Shown here piece by piece: positions 12,080 to 26,381 of a stretch of 31,848 bases of DNA. The stretch is taken from IMG/VR virus record IMGVR_UViG_3300042465_005350, positions 1 through 31,848 of that record; one strand, 5' to 3'. Position 1 is the stretch's first letter. Each line of letters opens with the position of its first letter. Both the position numbers and the translations under genes were made by a program. Below the pieces are notes generated by a model. That model saw nothing but the letters and a program-made list of their open reading frames with translations, made no database searches and was not told the DNA's origin. Origin of the DNA: a virus.

Positions 12080-12465
12080 TACAGCCTTGCTTTCTTACTT
12101 ATAGAAGATTGATTTATTCCGGTCAACCTAGACAGTGTGTTTTGGGAAGTTCCTGCCAAAAGTATTCTTTTAACAATTCTATAGTCAACCGAGTTACGCT
12201 CTTTGTCAGATAAGCACTCAGCAATGTCTTCTAAGCTCTTAGGGTTTAACCTGCCACCCACTCTTGGCCTTACAGCTAAGTATTTACACAGGGTTGTGTT
12301 GGATATCTTGCCACCAACTATGTTGCTAATCTGTCTAATTGATAAAGCGCCAAACTCATCGAGCTCTCGGATTAGCTCAAACGCCATAGTCTTAGTTATT
12401 GACTCGGCGTTGTCTCTTAGCCAGATAGCTTGACTCAGCAACCTGTGCTTATCTTGCTGATTCAC
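12079..12465 (-). CDS. Helix-turn-helix DNA-binding protein (128 aa)
   Basis: 128 residues from a GTG that overlaps the primase stop (TAGTG). Two HTH-like segments are visible: 'LSIRQISNIVGGKISNTTLCKYL' (about 41-63) and 'TSQNTLSRLTGINQSSISKKARL' at the very C terminus. The two similar units suggest a tandem-HTH protein that binds DNA. Position after the primase-helicase suggests a replication or regulatory role, but no specific family can be named. Confidence 0.6.
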   Translation of the reverse strand: MNQQDKHRLLSQAIWLRDNAESITKTMAFELIRELDEFGALSIRQISNIVGGKISNTTLCKYLAVRPRVGGRLNPKSLEDIAECLSDKERNSVDYRIVKRILLAGTSQNTLSRLTGINQSSISKKARL

Positions 12466-14663
12466 TAGATGTTTACCTCAAGATACATTTTTCCAGACTC
12501 GCTAGAAACTCCAAGTCTCCCTTGGGACTTCAGGGCATCAAGCATTTCATCAAACTCACGCTTGCGCTTGTTTGCAAATCTCTTGTATACATCTTCGTAG
12601 CGCATTCTGCCACCCTTAGAAGCAATCATGCTTTCTACTTGGTCAACTTCCCGTTGCCACTCAGAAGCAGAGATTGCACCAGCCATGCGAACTAGGTTGC
12701 GGAACCAGTCTTCGGAATAGTGAATAGCAATAAGCATGTGCCTTAGCTCCACCTCATCAGACTTGTCATACATAGCAATCAAGATTGCACACTTCCAGAT
12801 TGACAAGGCTAGTCGCTGACGGCTTGGCTCAATAGATTCCTCGTGGTCGTGACCGTTGGTGTACTCACCCATCTCCCATTTAAACTTATTAAATCTTTCT
12901 AGTGCTTCATCAGTTAGGCGAATCGGTCTAGGGAAAGGCGCACCCTTCTTCTGCCAGTAAAGGTAAGCGTCGTAAAGTGATCGCACGATGTTATCCATCT
13001 CATCATCTCGGGACCTTACTTCCACTTCATCAGCTTGTCTGATTGCTTCGCTCTCAAAAGTTCTGTCTGGTGCATCAGCAATTACATAGATAAACCTAGC
13101 CAAGAAACCAGACCGGAAATATTCGGTGGTCAGAACATCAGCAGTCTTGCTGGTAATACCCATTAGGTACATCAAGAAGTTAGTCTCGGCTCTCTCAGAC
13201 TGCATTCCCTTGCCAGGACTAGAGCCTCCAGTGGAGCGCACAATAACAGGAACGTGACCGTCATAAAGCTCTGTGAACCGCTCTGCAGCAGTTGCCATGT
13301 AGGTCTTATTAATAAAGTCCTTAAACATACCTTGAACCTCATCACGATGAAACAGCGAAGTCTGCTTATCCCTAACAGAAAGTAGCTTGACCAAACCTTC
13401 TGCAGTCACATCAGAACCAACGTCAATTTGATACCCAGCAAACTTTTCATACTCACGAACAATCCTGAGCATTAGTTGACGTGAGGTTGACTTACGGCTT
13501 CTGGTTGTTTCACCAAGAATCATGAACCAAAGGTTTAGGCCCATCTTGCCATACTTAGGAACAGCGTGACCAGTGTCAGAGAAGCAAGAAGAAAGAATTG
13601 TAAACGCACCAGCAATCTGATACTCAACAGCCGCATCAGTTTTCTTCTGAGACCAATCTACATATCTATCTACAAAGGTCTTGTTGGTTGCTACTACTCC
13701 ACGCTCATCTTCGGTTAGGAAATCGACAGGCTTTTCGGTCCTTTTGTCAATCTCATCTAGTACATACTCTGGCGTTGCGGTAGTTCCAAAAGACTGACTA
13801 GCCCTAAGAATCTCTCTCCACAGGTCACCATCAGCGTCTAAGCGCTTCGGTCTTAGTGGCGAGTGATACTTGTTACACTTTGCGTGTTTAGCTATTACAA
13901 ATACTTCCTCGGGGCTAAAGCCAAGTCTGAACATCTCCATCTCGAGCTTCCACAGCCTCTTAGACCAATCGGCATTTACTGGTGGCTCATCCATATACAA
14001 TGTTGCAATTTCTGAGTTGGCTGGAATCTTAGAAAGAATAGTCACGATATCTGCCGACTGAGCTGGCATTGGAACTAAGCTAACTTCGCTTATTGCTTCA
14101 ATCTCAGTTTTGCCGTAAGTCTGTTCCATCTCTTCTAGGGTATAAATTTCACCAGAAGTGCTACCGATAACTGTGTAAGATTCATTTTCATACTTGGTGT
14201 TACGTGTCCCAGGAACTCTAAGTAGCTTGGTTGGATTCCAACCAGATAGATCGCAGCCATCGTTTTTGTGTGCGTAAGCAACCTTTTTTGACATGGTTGC
14301 GATTATGTGTGGCTCGTGGGCCTTCTCCAACATCCAGTAGCAGTGCCAGCGGTTCGGGGATGTCTGCACTGAGATAGAAGGTTTTATTAAAAACTTCTCT
14401 GGTGGGCAAGCGTCTGCATCGGCATAAACGACAGCGACTTCTTTTGCGTTCTCGCGGATTCTACGCTGTTCATGGAAAAGGATTGGTGAGAAGTAAACAT
14501 CTTCGTTTACAAACTTCTCAACATAATCAACTATTAAGTCAAGCTCGGCTGGGTAGTTGAAAAACTTTTGGACAGTCGGATTCTTTCGTGCATCCATCGT
14601 AACGATAGTTGCGTAGCCAGCCCCTTCTCCAAAGACCGACTCAAAGAACACTCTCGAATCCAT
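12465..14663 (-). CDS. Primase-helicase (AEP-type primase fused to P-loop ATPase)
   Basis: 732 residues. The N-terminal ~200 residues look like an archaeo-eukaryotic-type primase: 'VVYADADA' provides D82-x-D84, 'SPNRWHCYW' the His (H107), and 'NPTKLLRVPGTRN' a later conserved block. The middle part has a P-loop-like 'LGETTRSRKST' (about 383-393) and 'SLFHRDEVQG' (D441, E442) as Walker B, as in actinophage DUF3987-like helicase proteins. The last ~65 residues resemble a winged helix. It would prime and unwind at the replication fork. ATG preceded by AAAGG (14671-14675); a structured leader lies just upstream. Confidence 0.8.
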   Translation of the reverse strand: MDSRVFFESVFGEGAGYATIVTMDARKNPTVQKFFNYPAELDLIVDYVEKFVNEDVYFSPILFHEQRRIRENAKEVAVVYADADACPPEKFLIKPSISVQTSPNRWHCYWMLEKAHEPHIIATMSKKVAYAHKNDGCDLSGWNPTKLLRVPGTRNTKYENESYTVIGSTSGEIYTLEEMEQTYGKTEIEAISEVSLVPMPAQSADIVTILSKIPANSEIATLYMDEPPVNADWSKRLWKLEMEMFRLGFSPEEVFVIAKHAKCNKYHSPLRPKRLDADGDLWREILRASQSFGTTATPEYVLDEIDKRTEKPVDFLTEDERGVVATNKTFVDRYVDWSQKKTDAAVEYQIAGAFTILSSCFSDTGHAVPKYGKMGLNLWFMILGETTRSRKSTSRQLMLRIVREYEKFAGYQIDVGSDVTAEGLVKLLSVRDKQTSLFHRDEVQGMFKDFINKTYMATAAERFTELYDGHVPVIVRSTGGSSPGKGMQSERAETNFLMYLMGITSKTADVLTTEYFRSGFLARFIYVIADAPDRTFESEAIRQADEVEVRSRDDEMDNIVRSLYDAYLYWQKKGAPFPRPIRLTDEALERFNKFKWEMGEYTNGHDHEESIEPSRQRLALSIWKCAILIAMYDKSDEVELRHMLIAIHYSEDWFRNLVRMAGAISASEWQREVDQVESMIASKGGRMRYEDVYKRFANKRKREFDEMLDALKSQGRLGVSSESGKMYLEVNI

Positions 14664-14670
14664 TTACATA

Positions 14671-14793
14671 CCTTTCTTCTTCTCCGTTTTGTACCACCAG
14701 TAAGAATCGAACTTACTATCACAGTGAAAGGAGAAGAAGCTGTGATACACCAGTTGTGGCTAATGTGCGTTGTTTACGAGACGCACCCCTCGT
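14671..14793 (-). promoter_or_regulatory. Structured RNA leader of the primase gene: pseudoknot, hairpin and tRNA T-arm-like element
   Basis: Read on the - strand after the upstream stop codon: ACGAG (14793-14789) pairs with CTCGT (14780-14776), while GTGCGT (14786-14781) pairs with ACGCAC (14770-14765), an H-type pseudoknot with loops GG and AAACA. Next, TATCACAG (14747-14740) pairs with CTGTGATA (14724-14717). GTAAGTTCGATTCTTAC (14716-14700) is a perfect tRNA T-arm. GCCAC (14760-14756) can close over these with GTGGT (14697-14693). CTTCTTCTCC (14739-14730) can pair with GGAGAAGAAG (14685-14676), directly beside the AAAGG ribosome-binding site. Pairings are read by eye; no folding was run. 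Confidence 0.5.
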
Positions 14794-14805: not shown

Positions 14806-15270
14806 TTACGCCCAGGCGGAATCAGTCGGGGTTGCGCCCATTGAAGCTAGAAGGTCTGCTCCCGACTTAGCAGTGCCCTTCTCGAATCCAGAAACATTGT
14901 TATCTGCAGCATACTCGCCTTGCGCTTCACGAATTACTACTCTAGCGACAACTGGCTTACCTAGAAGCTCGTTGATATCTGGAACGTCGAAGTTCCCCTT
15001 TACTGGGTAGCCTAGAGACTCGAAGAAGCTCTGAGTCTTCCAAAAGTCACCAGCCACGTAAAGTGGAATCAAGACAAACAAACGGCGGTTTTCAAATTCA
15101 CCGTCTGCAATTTTTAGCTGGACTTTCCAGCGTGGTTTTCCGGCGTTCTGACCAGACTTCACAGTCTCTGCCTGAACGTCGAAAATGGTTGTTTCGTACT
15201 TACCAGCAGGTACTGGCTCGTAGCTTGTTGAACTGCTTTGTGGCAGGTTCTCAGGAACTGAGATTTGCAT
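14806..15270 (-). CDS. DUF669-like ssDNA-binding recombination partner
   Basis: 154 residues. 'PVPAGKYETTIFDVQAETVKSG' followed by 'KPRWKVQLKIADGEFENRRLFVLIPL' and 'FWKTQSFFESLGYPV' matches the OB-like DUF669 family, usually encoded next to Sak4/AAA recombinases in phages and thought to bind ssDNA. The C terminus ('GADLLASMGATPTDSAWA') is a flexible tail. It directly follows the ATPase gene (1 nt after the stop) and has a GGAGAA ribosome-binding site. The role as an annealing partner is inferred. Confidence 0.7.
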   Translation of the reverse strand: MQISVPENLPQSSSTSYEPVPAGKYETTIFDVQAETVKSGQNAGKPRWKVQLKIADGEFENRRLFVLIPLYVAGDFWKTQSFFESLGYPVKGNFDVPDINELLGKPVVARVVIREAQGEYAADNNVSGFEKGTAKSGADLLASMGATPTDSAWA

Positions 15271-25255: not shown

Positions 25256-26332
25256 TTACATTTTCGCTGAGTGGATGTTCCACCAAGATTTGGTGAAATC
25301 GTCGAGCTGGGAATTCGATAGATAACCCAACTCTGCGAAGTCATCTACCGAACCCATAAAGCTTCCATACTCGTCGAAGTATTCTCCATACTCATTACAG
25401 TAGTAATCGGCTACTCTTGGATACCCGTAATATCCTGGGTCATTGAGAGTTCCGAAACTAGGGTCTGACTCGCTGTCGTAATACCCTGTTAGGTCTTCGC
25501 CGTAGTAATCGGCAGGTTGCCCAACATTTGGCATTTGGTCATACCAGTCATCTAGGTAATCTACTGGCTTGGAGTGACCGCCAGCAGTCATAGAACGGAA
25601 GCCTGCGTAGTTGTAGCTAAACTTCTGAACATACTTCGGGTCGATCTCGGGCAAGGTCTCTACATTGACTAGCGAGCCATTCTCGATAGTAAGCAGGGTC
25701 TTTTCTGAGATTACTTCTGTATAGATTGGATAGATACCGATTGACTCTAGGGCGATTAGCAACATAGCTTCTGTTGAAGCGAATACGAAACTGCCGTCCT
25801 TGAGGATAGCGATACATAGCGGTGAGTGAGTGATACGAGCAACCTTGAGAGTTAGTCGGTCATTGTCATCTAGCCACGCAATAGAAGCGTCTCCGTCTAG
25901 CTTGTCGAAGCTGTCGGTGTTACGCTCGAATGTTTGTAGCAACGCTGGGATAACGCTGGAATCTACTTCTGGCAAGGTGAACGGAATCTCGCCGCGAACC
26001 ATATCGTGATTGTAGATAACGCCATTGTGAACCAGAGCAACTGACTTGTCGGGAGACAATACAGGGTGGTTGTTGGCATTGTTGCTTGTAGAGCCGTGGG
26101 TAGCGTAGCGAGTGTGTAGGACTGCTACACGAGTGCCACGAGACATTGGCTTCATTGAGAGTTGTGCGCCTGAAGCGTCACGCTTGAAGATACCCGACGC
26201 AGTGCTTGACTGCCACGCATAACCTGAAGCCTGATTGCCTCTAACATCCATCTCTCGCAATAGAGCCTTAGCTAACTTGCGGGGTTGAATTCTTGAATTT
26301 TCTGATAATGAATAACCTGCGATTGAACACAT
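25256..26332 (-). CDS. Class-II glutamine amidotransferase (Ntn-type) with Tyr/Asp-rich tail
   Basis: 358 residues. The start is set at 'MCSIAGY' because these enzymes need Cys at position 2 as catalytic nucleophile; an in-frame GTG three codons earlier overlaps the ribosome-binding site. Residues matching the family: C2, 'HTRYATHG' (R75), 'NNHPV' (88-91), 'VHNGVIYN' (N103) and 'EVDSS' (D124). It would release ammonia from glutamine for a partner synthetase; no synthetase domain is fused. Residues about 260-330 are rich in Tyr, Asp and Gly ('DYYGEDLTGYYDSESD'), an unusual tail. A plausible partner is the amidoligase at 27543, across the hub. Confidence 0.8.
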   Translation of the reverse strand: MCSIAGYSLSENSRIQPRKLAKALLREMDVRGNQASGYAWQSSTASGIFKRDASGAQLSMKPMSRGTRVAVLHTRYATHGSTSNNANNHPVLSPDKSVALVHNGVIYNHDMVRGEIPFTLPEVDSSVIPALLQTFERNTDSFDKLDGDASIAWLDDNDRLTLKVARITHSPLCIAILKDGSFVFASTEAMLLIALESIGIYPIYTEVISEKTLLTIENGSLVNVETLPEIDPKYVQKFSYNYAGFRSMTAGGHSKPVDYLDDWYDQMPNVGQPADYYGEDLTGYYDSESDPSFGTLNDPGYYGYPRVADYYCNEYGEYFDEYGSFMGSVDDFAELGYLSNSQLDDFTKSWWNIHSAKM

Positions 26333-26381
26333 AATTATCACCTTTACTTTCTTTTTGTCTATGTTTACTTGTTATATATAT

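Follow-up and report, generated by a model that had tools for sequence, protein, structure and literature searches.

The junction between two genes of this virus, one for a protein resembling single-stranded DNA-binding proteins (SSB) and one for a primase, is predicted to encode a two-part RNA within the SSB-primase transcript, made up of a pseudoknot of a kind that follows stop codons across phages and a tRNA mimic whose loop carries an anti-Shine-Dalgarno (anti-SD) sequence. The DNA analysed, hereafter the window, is a 31,848-nt stretch of virus DNA from IMG/VR (IMGVR_UViG_3300042465_005350, positions 1 to 31,848), and the element occupies positions 14793-14691 of its minus strand, inside the 142-nt intergenic gap between the DUF669 gene and the DUF3987 primase gene. 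The initial annotation had described a pseudoknot, an 8-bp hairpin, a T-arm, an enclosing helix and a 10-bp pairing at this site, and all of these could be located, on the minus strand, as follows.

14806 to 15270, minus strand: upstream gene, coding for the DUF669, SSB-like protein of 154 amino acids; stop codon at 14808-14806.
14765 to 14793, minus strand: H-type pseudoknot of type B, 12 nt past the SSB stop codon; from sequence and covariation.
14761 to 14764, minus strand: linker AUUA, 4 nt, from the pseudoknot to the acceptor helix (3-4 nt in relatives).
14691 to 14760, minus strand: tRNA-like structure (TLS), from the acceptor 5' strand to an 'AC' resembling A73-C74; from model R1 and covariation.
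14760-14756 with 14697-14693, minus strand: acceptor (enclosing) helix GCCAC/GUGGU; from sequence and covariation.
14748 to 14755, minus strand: D-loop-like segment AACUGGUG, D-stem absent; GG invariant in relatives.
14717 to 14747 (14747-14740 with 14724-14717), minus strand: 8-bp arm UAUCACAG/CUGUGAUA; from sequence and covariation.
14716-14700, minus strand: T-arm GUAAG UUCGAUU CUUAC; from sequence, with the T-loop invariant or nearly so.
14671 to 14685, minus strand: GGAGAAGAAG plus AAAGG, complementary to the loop of the 8-bp arm and adjoining the primase Shine-Dalgarno (SD) sequence; from sequence and duplex energies.
12465 to 14663, minus strand: downstream gene, DUF3987 primase/helicase (PHROG DNA primase, 9.9e-171).

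In the pseudoknot, a 5-bp stem S1 (ACGAG/CUCGU, 14793-14789 with 14780-14776) and a 6-bp stem S2 (GUGCGU/ACGCAC, 14786-14781 with 14770-14765) are connected by loops L1 (GG) and L3 (AAACA), and a scan of the window for this architecture returned one site only, the element's own. The TLS scored 79.3 bits (E 1e-18) against model R1, of whose training set the window is a member. ARAGORN called no tRNA at the element, and Rfam 15 at the gathering threshold gave no family match in the window, including RF00005, RF00023 and RF02960. Folding of the single sequence was only mildly unusual (z -1.72, with 8 of 200 shuffles equally stable), and because this is barely more than shuffled sequences achieve, the case needed a comparison of relatives.

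Relatives were gathered by primase homology, yielding 70 viral loci with primase identity down to about 57%. The element was found upstream of the primase gene in 67 of them, that is, in all with enough upstream sequence (L052, L057 and L065 being the three that fall short). Two versions of the pseudoknot occur, type A, [AGUC]C<UGAGACA>U[GACU]UAAAAC<UGUCUCA>, and the window's type B, [ACGAG]GG<GUGCGU>[CUCGU]AAACA<ACGCAC>, and the linker to the TLS measures 3-4 nt, or 5 nt in one case. A plain MAFFT alignment of 33 type-A elements placed standard pairs in 99.2% of cells, with 106 double-change cells against 24.6 after shuffling, while helices slid out of register paired in 22-45% of cells. For type B (n=12, window included) the corresponding values were 98.4% and 52 against 16.5. 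Across 41 TLS sequences we counted 173 double-change cells against 43.9 in shuffled data; the acceptor and the T-stem were each paired in 100% of cells, the former with double changes in four of its five pairs, and the 8-bp arm in 85%, with double changes in seven of eight pairs. The initial annotation had proposed a covariance check on homologous leaders, and strong covariation was indeed present in every helix.

These covariation counts take in related sequences, whereas a second line of evidence, a search for compensated pseudoknots, draws on diverse phages. The exact pattern for one S2 sequence recovered at least 120 viral stretches and patterns with one base pair compensated recovered 77, while patterns in which only one side of one pair was changed recovered no viral stretch. 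A chance fold is ruled out by the covariation and these native, compensated and mismatch searches, which, on comparative sequence evidence, confirm both predicted folds as real.

The columns of the TLS that are invariant or nearly so include both G of the D-loop-like ACUGGUG, the T-loop UUCRAUU and the G-C pair closing that loop, which correspond in the alignment to the positions that form the tRNA elbow. At 5-6 bp in many sequences, the acceptor falls short of tRNA length, and CCA is not encoded. In at least 43 of 47 sequences an 'AC' comes directly after the acceptor helix, the next base being variable. R73 and C74 are positions read by bacterial RNase P; the conserved 'AC' appears to occupy them and is only suggestive as a sign of RNase P processing. 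A decaying or odd tRNA gene, left without function in a tRNA cluster, would account for the tRNA-like T-arm and acceptor, for the tRNA genes that often adjoin the element and for the odd tRNAs that related phages have at the same spot. Since every helix is compensated and the loop is almost invariant down to about 57% primase identity, this explanation, which the covariation contradicts, is very improbable.

Position relative to the flanking genes bears on what the element belongs to. The distance from the SSB (DUF669) stop codon to S1 is 5-25 nt in the relatives, mostly 10-17 nt, whereas the distance from the end of the element to the primase gene ranges from 15 to 1018 nt, with zero to four tRNA genes in between (L005, L027, L028, L045 and L054, which share sequence with another locus and have incorrect coordinates, are left out of this spacing table). 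Ten long contigs each carried one strong TLS, one of them with a second, weak match, and a covariance-model search of other loci found strong TLS matches only in the SSB-primase slot, with weaker ones in L086 and L110. The narrow range of distances to the SSB stop codon, the variable distance to the primase and the occurrence in a single slot indicate that the element belongs to the post-SSB junction and not to the primase leader as such. Placement in the primase leader, as first annotated, therefore holds insofar as the element lies upstream of the primase in relatives, but its anchor is the SSB stop codon.

The upstream protein has a Pfam DUF669 match (2.4e-08) and matches SSB families in PHROGs. 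Its predicted fold is of the OB type (pLDDT 83), and the top solved match is the ssDNA-binding protein PrgE (E 2.1e-05), in an entry listed as the DNA-bound form. Judged by PHROG families and predicted fold, the protein looks like an SSB, in agreement with the earlier suggestion. DUF669 homologues and the window protein (14806-15270) share a short conserved C-terminal tail, usually with a Trp near the end (..DVW, ..DSAWA), reminiscent of SSB tip peptides. Elsewhere in the window, 25256-26341 encodes a protein with a glutamine amidotransferase domain (GATase_6, 4.6e-19). A BLAST comparison of the window region with cultured phages gave no DNA match.

The pseudoknot extends well beyond these loci. 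Short-query BLAST with the type-A version found it in phages of Paracoccus, Synechococcus, Mycobacterium, Acutalibacteraceae and others, each time in a different setting. Its outermost pair, left free in the pattern, was Watson-Crick in 90 of 114 cases, compared with a shuffled mean of 33 and a maximum of 51 in 10,000 shuffles. Among phage-wide copies, 64% lie within 0-20 nt past a stop codon, against 5% of random positions, and 45 of 144 lie exactly 5 nt past it. Neighbouring genes are diverse both upstream and downstream, which rules out a pseudoknot specific to SSB genes. The patterns covered two S2 sequences only, so that the class size is a lower bound, and Rfam held no family for the pseudoknot at the other loci examined either; a class of this kind could easily escape RNA searches based on stem-loops. 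One viral contig (L192, 7411-13720) holds five copies in 6.3 kb.

A further 39 matches to the pattern came from genome_contigs, where the outer pair did not covary, and many of these look like recurrent coding sequence on the opposite strand; an early idea that they were ribonucleotide-reductase 3' ends was dropped. An ordinary bacterial element was rejected on the lack of outer-pair covariation in genome_contigs, the clear exceptions being DUF2800-type loci. Since the outer pair does not covary there and many matches are coding-like, the class appears to be phage-borne. In L276 (212-236) the pseudoknot sequence is a CRISPR spacer of an Oscillatoriaceae cyanobacterium (repeat ...GAATCCCTTTCAGGGATTGAAA), as would be expected had the host acquired it from a phage.

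The 5-nt spacing peak matches the usual spacer of recoding pseudoknots and raises the question of whether the structure stalls the ribosome as a readthrough or frameshift signal. Most frames past the stop codons are short, and the stop used most often is UAA, which makes readthrough unlikely, and the DUF669 loci use spacings of 5-25 nt; we consider a recoding signal barely credible.

A link to tRNAs emerged from what follows the pseudoknot. In 8 of 176 cases a real tRNA starts 3-8 nt downstream, where 0.15 would be expected (about 50-fold enrichment), and the tRNAs found in this position are Arg, Ser, Trp, Asp, Asn, Thr and Leu. tRNAs require processing by RNase P. Because the spacing in the window, pseudoknot, 4 nt, TLS, equals that between pseudoknot and tRNA elsewhere, an RNase P cut just after the pseudoknot is favoured, and we infer that the end of the linker (14761/14760) is the cut site. 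Since the pseudoknot also precedes ordinary genes with neither tRNA nor TLS, it cannot work with RNase P alone. Known substrates of RNase P include tRNA-like structures and phage RNAs, M3 and C4 among them (PMC11143913). The option of a tRNA mimic or processing site, raised by the initial annotation, is thus well supported by the invariant elbow, the covarying helices and the tRNAs 3-8 nt after the same pseudoknot in unrelated phages.

Several other loci show variants of this arrangement. In the cultured Arthrobacter phages Amigo and Molivia, which have a distant primase, the same pseudoknot follows the SSB gene and is itself followed by an odd tRNA whose anticodon loop is abnormal. This 'tRNA-Gly(ccc)' (L112, 2084-2161; L127, 631-708) has been annotated variously as Gly, Leu, OTHER or nothing and is probably not a decoding tRNA. 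Nostoc phage NMeng1 carries the pseudoknot plus a 'tRNA-pseudo'. In L237 (8011-8082), behind a different upstream gene, the pseudoknot precedes a tRNA-like RNA, whose loop CCUCCAAAA has 9 nt, and a normal tRNA-Tyr comes next.

We next consider the loop of the 8-bp arm, which in the window comprises 15 nt (14739-14725) and contains CUCCUUU. This motif or a close form of it is present in all distinct sequences except one (L026-L028) and, in sequence, copies the anti-SD region of 16S rRNA. The 10-bp pairing in the window joins loop CUUCUUCUCC (14739-14730) with GGAGAAGAAG (14685-14676), which immediately precedes AAAGG (14675-14671), the SD sequence for the primase AUG at 14663. Among the nearest relatives of the window, loop-RBS (ribosome-binding site) duplex energies are -17 to -20 kcal/mol. 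Loops of short-gap loci fit their own RBS better than those of others (-15.5 versus -13.4 kcal/mol, permutation p<2e-4, a comparison confounded by relatedness), while loops of long-gap, tRNA-interrupted loci showed no preference for their own RBS (p 0.36). Outside the SD sequence, long-gap primase leaders have a modest excess of loop complementarity (mean z -0.93, control -0.03). The loop-RBS complementarity is in part a generic SD/anti-SD match and is confounded by relatedness; within the window's own clade, the loop is likely to pair with the primase leader.

One explanation is a switch in cis: the pseudoknot and TLS would fold as a leader, and its anti-SD loop would alternately free and mask the primase RBS, possibly with the pseudoknot bound by the SSB as in gene 32. 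It would fit the 10-bp pairing, the better own-RBS match at short gaps, the SSB-like upstream protein and the Rfam cis-regulatory DUF2800 RNA that has the same pseudoknot directly 5' of it. Yet the anchor is the SSB stop codon and not the primase start, tRNA genes intervene in many relatives, the pseudoknot follows many unrelated genes and the permutation result is confounded by relatedness, and we regard a switch of this kind as rather unlikely. The translational switch of the primase suggested by the initial annotation accordingly survives in part: the loop does match the RBS region, both in the window and in relatives close to it, but many relatives have one to four tRNA genes between an SSB-anchored element and the primase. 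An operator of the gene 32 type is weakened by the same pseudoknot following many unrelated genes.

Two further TLS with anti-SD loops lie in unrelated phage settings, L110 (3774-3865), whose loop AUCACCUCCUUUU resembles the 16S rRNA 3' end, and L086 (1137-1205), which begins directly after a stop codon; both were found with a pattern that demanded CUCCUUU. Beyond the window's clade, the main rival to pairing with the primase leader is a role in trans: tRNA enzymes would excise the TLS as a small RNA, and its mimic of the 16S tail would bind SD sequences of phage or host mRNAs. This would explain why the CUCCUUU core is kept even with the primase up to 1 kb away and why the TLS is embedded in tRNA arrays at many loci, and the L110 and L086 settings would also suit it. 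However, the motif at those two loci was imposed by the search pattern itself, and the extra complementarity of primase leaders suggests a local target; we judge a trans-acting RNA to be quite unlikely.

The mechanism that we favour, at a probability somewhat short of even, combines an RNase P cut at the TLS, an SSB mRNA 3' end protected by the pseudoknot and a TLS loop that damps primase translation. Cleavage by RNase P where the tRNA mimic begins would separate the SSB and primase messages. The pseudoknot would then form the new 3' terminus of the SSB mRNA, with a tail of 3-4 nt, and would block 3'-to-5' exonucleases, for which a pseudoknot with so short a tail is a poor entry point. The primase mRNA would keep the tRNA mimic at its 5' terminus or, where tRNA genes follow, the mimic would be released as a small RNA; the anti-SD loop of the mimic would pair with the primase RBS and keep translation low. 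A single transcript would in this way give a high level of SSB and a low level of primase. More tentatively, and with considerable doubt, we propose that an uncatalogued pseudoknot of ~28 nt, shared by phages whose hosts differ widely, caps mRNA 3' ends past stop codons and is here fused to an anti-SD tRNA mimic, combining RNase P processing, 3'-end protection and ribosome-binding control in one 100-nt element that would yield unequal expression of neighbouring genes. If true, the pseudoknot class, recorded in phages of Actinobacteria, cyanobacteria, Proteobacteria and gut Firmicutes, would amount to a general-purpose device for gene expression in phages, and the anti-SD tRNA mimic a new coupling of RNA processing with translation control. 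Both bear on the question of how very different protein amounts are obtained from adjacent phage genes on one transcript.

Our literature search, with most subscription papers outside its reach, found no description of the pseudoknot or of a tRNA-like, anti-SD phage element. Among known systems, the pseudoknot of T4 gene 32, possibly the sole viral pseudoknot in autoregulation of translation according to a 2010 review, precedes the start of its own gene and is a binding site of gp32 (PMC3014915). The T4/T2 leader pseudoknot and that of the window share the H-type fold, a short L1, an S2 of 6-7 bp, coaxial stems and the link to a phage SSB. In contrast to the 5'-leader placement in gene 32, the window pseudoknot lies 12 nt past the SSB stop codon (5-25 nt in relatives), is joined to a tRNA mimic and belongs to a class that follows many other genes.

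The TLS resembles the tRNA-like domain of tmRNA in its acceptor, D-loop without D-stem, long arm and T-arm, and differs in having no tag ORF, G3.U70 pattern or CCA, no match to Rfam, RF00023 included, and a pseudoknot outside the tRNA-like part; its acceptor varies among relatives. Stenotrophomonas virus Jojan60 (L116, 2302-2384) has an 83-nt RNA between its SSB-like gene and the primase that matches Rfam tmRNA at 61.8 bits (E 5.5e-22). This RNA consists of the tRNA-like domain alone, carries G3.U70 and CCA and has no room for a tag; it would be a mini-tmRNA lacking the tag, located in the homologous slot. With phage tRNAs the TLS shares the elbow nucleotides, the T-arm, the acceptor helix and the tRNA-cluster setting; it lacks a D-stem and a 7-nt anticodon loop, has an anti-SD loop of 13-22 nt instead, and is recognised by neither ARAGORN nor RF00005.

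DUF2800 RNA (Rfam RF02960) is likewise a phage-associated structured RNA with the same pseudoknot immediately 5'; its downstream structure is different, and the window has no RF02960 match. In L129, L132 and L136 this pseudoknot lies at about 1500-1528 and ends at the model start, and similar sequence occurs in L211, L243, L267, L278 and L293. A conserved pseudoknot on the 5' side may therefore be missing from the published RF02960 motif.

In MALAT1, a tRNA-like part is cleaved off by RNase P, and the new end is shielded from exonucleases by a triple helix (PMC10869381). As with MALAT1/mascRNA, a structured 3' element is directly followed by a tRNA-like RNA in the window: the tRNA-like domain starts 3-4 nt past the pseudoknot, tRNAs are similarly spaced elsewhere, and protection by the pseudoknot is putative. 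MALAT1 differs in being a vertebrate non-coding RNA with a U-rich triple helix, as opposed to a phage mRNA with an H-type pseudoknot and a predicted RNase P cut. No known family accepts the element on the features tested, and each proposed step has precedent; if the proposed mechanism is true, the element would be a bacterial parallel to the MALAT1 3' end.
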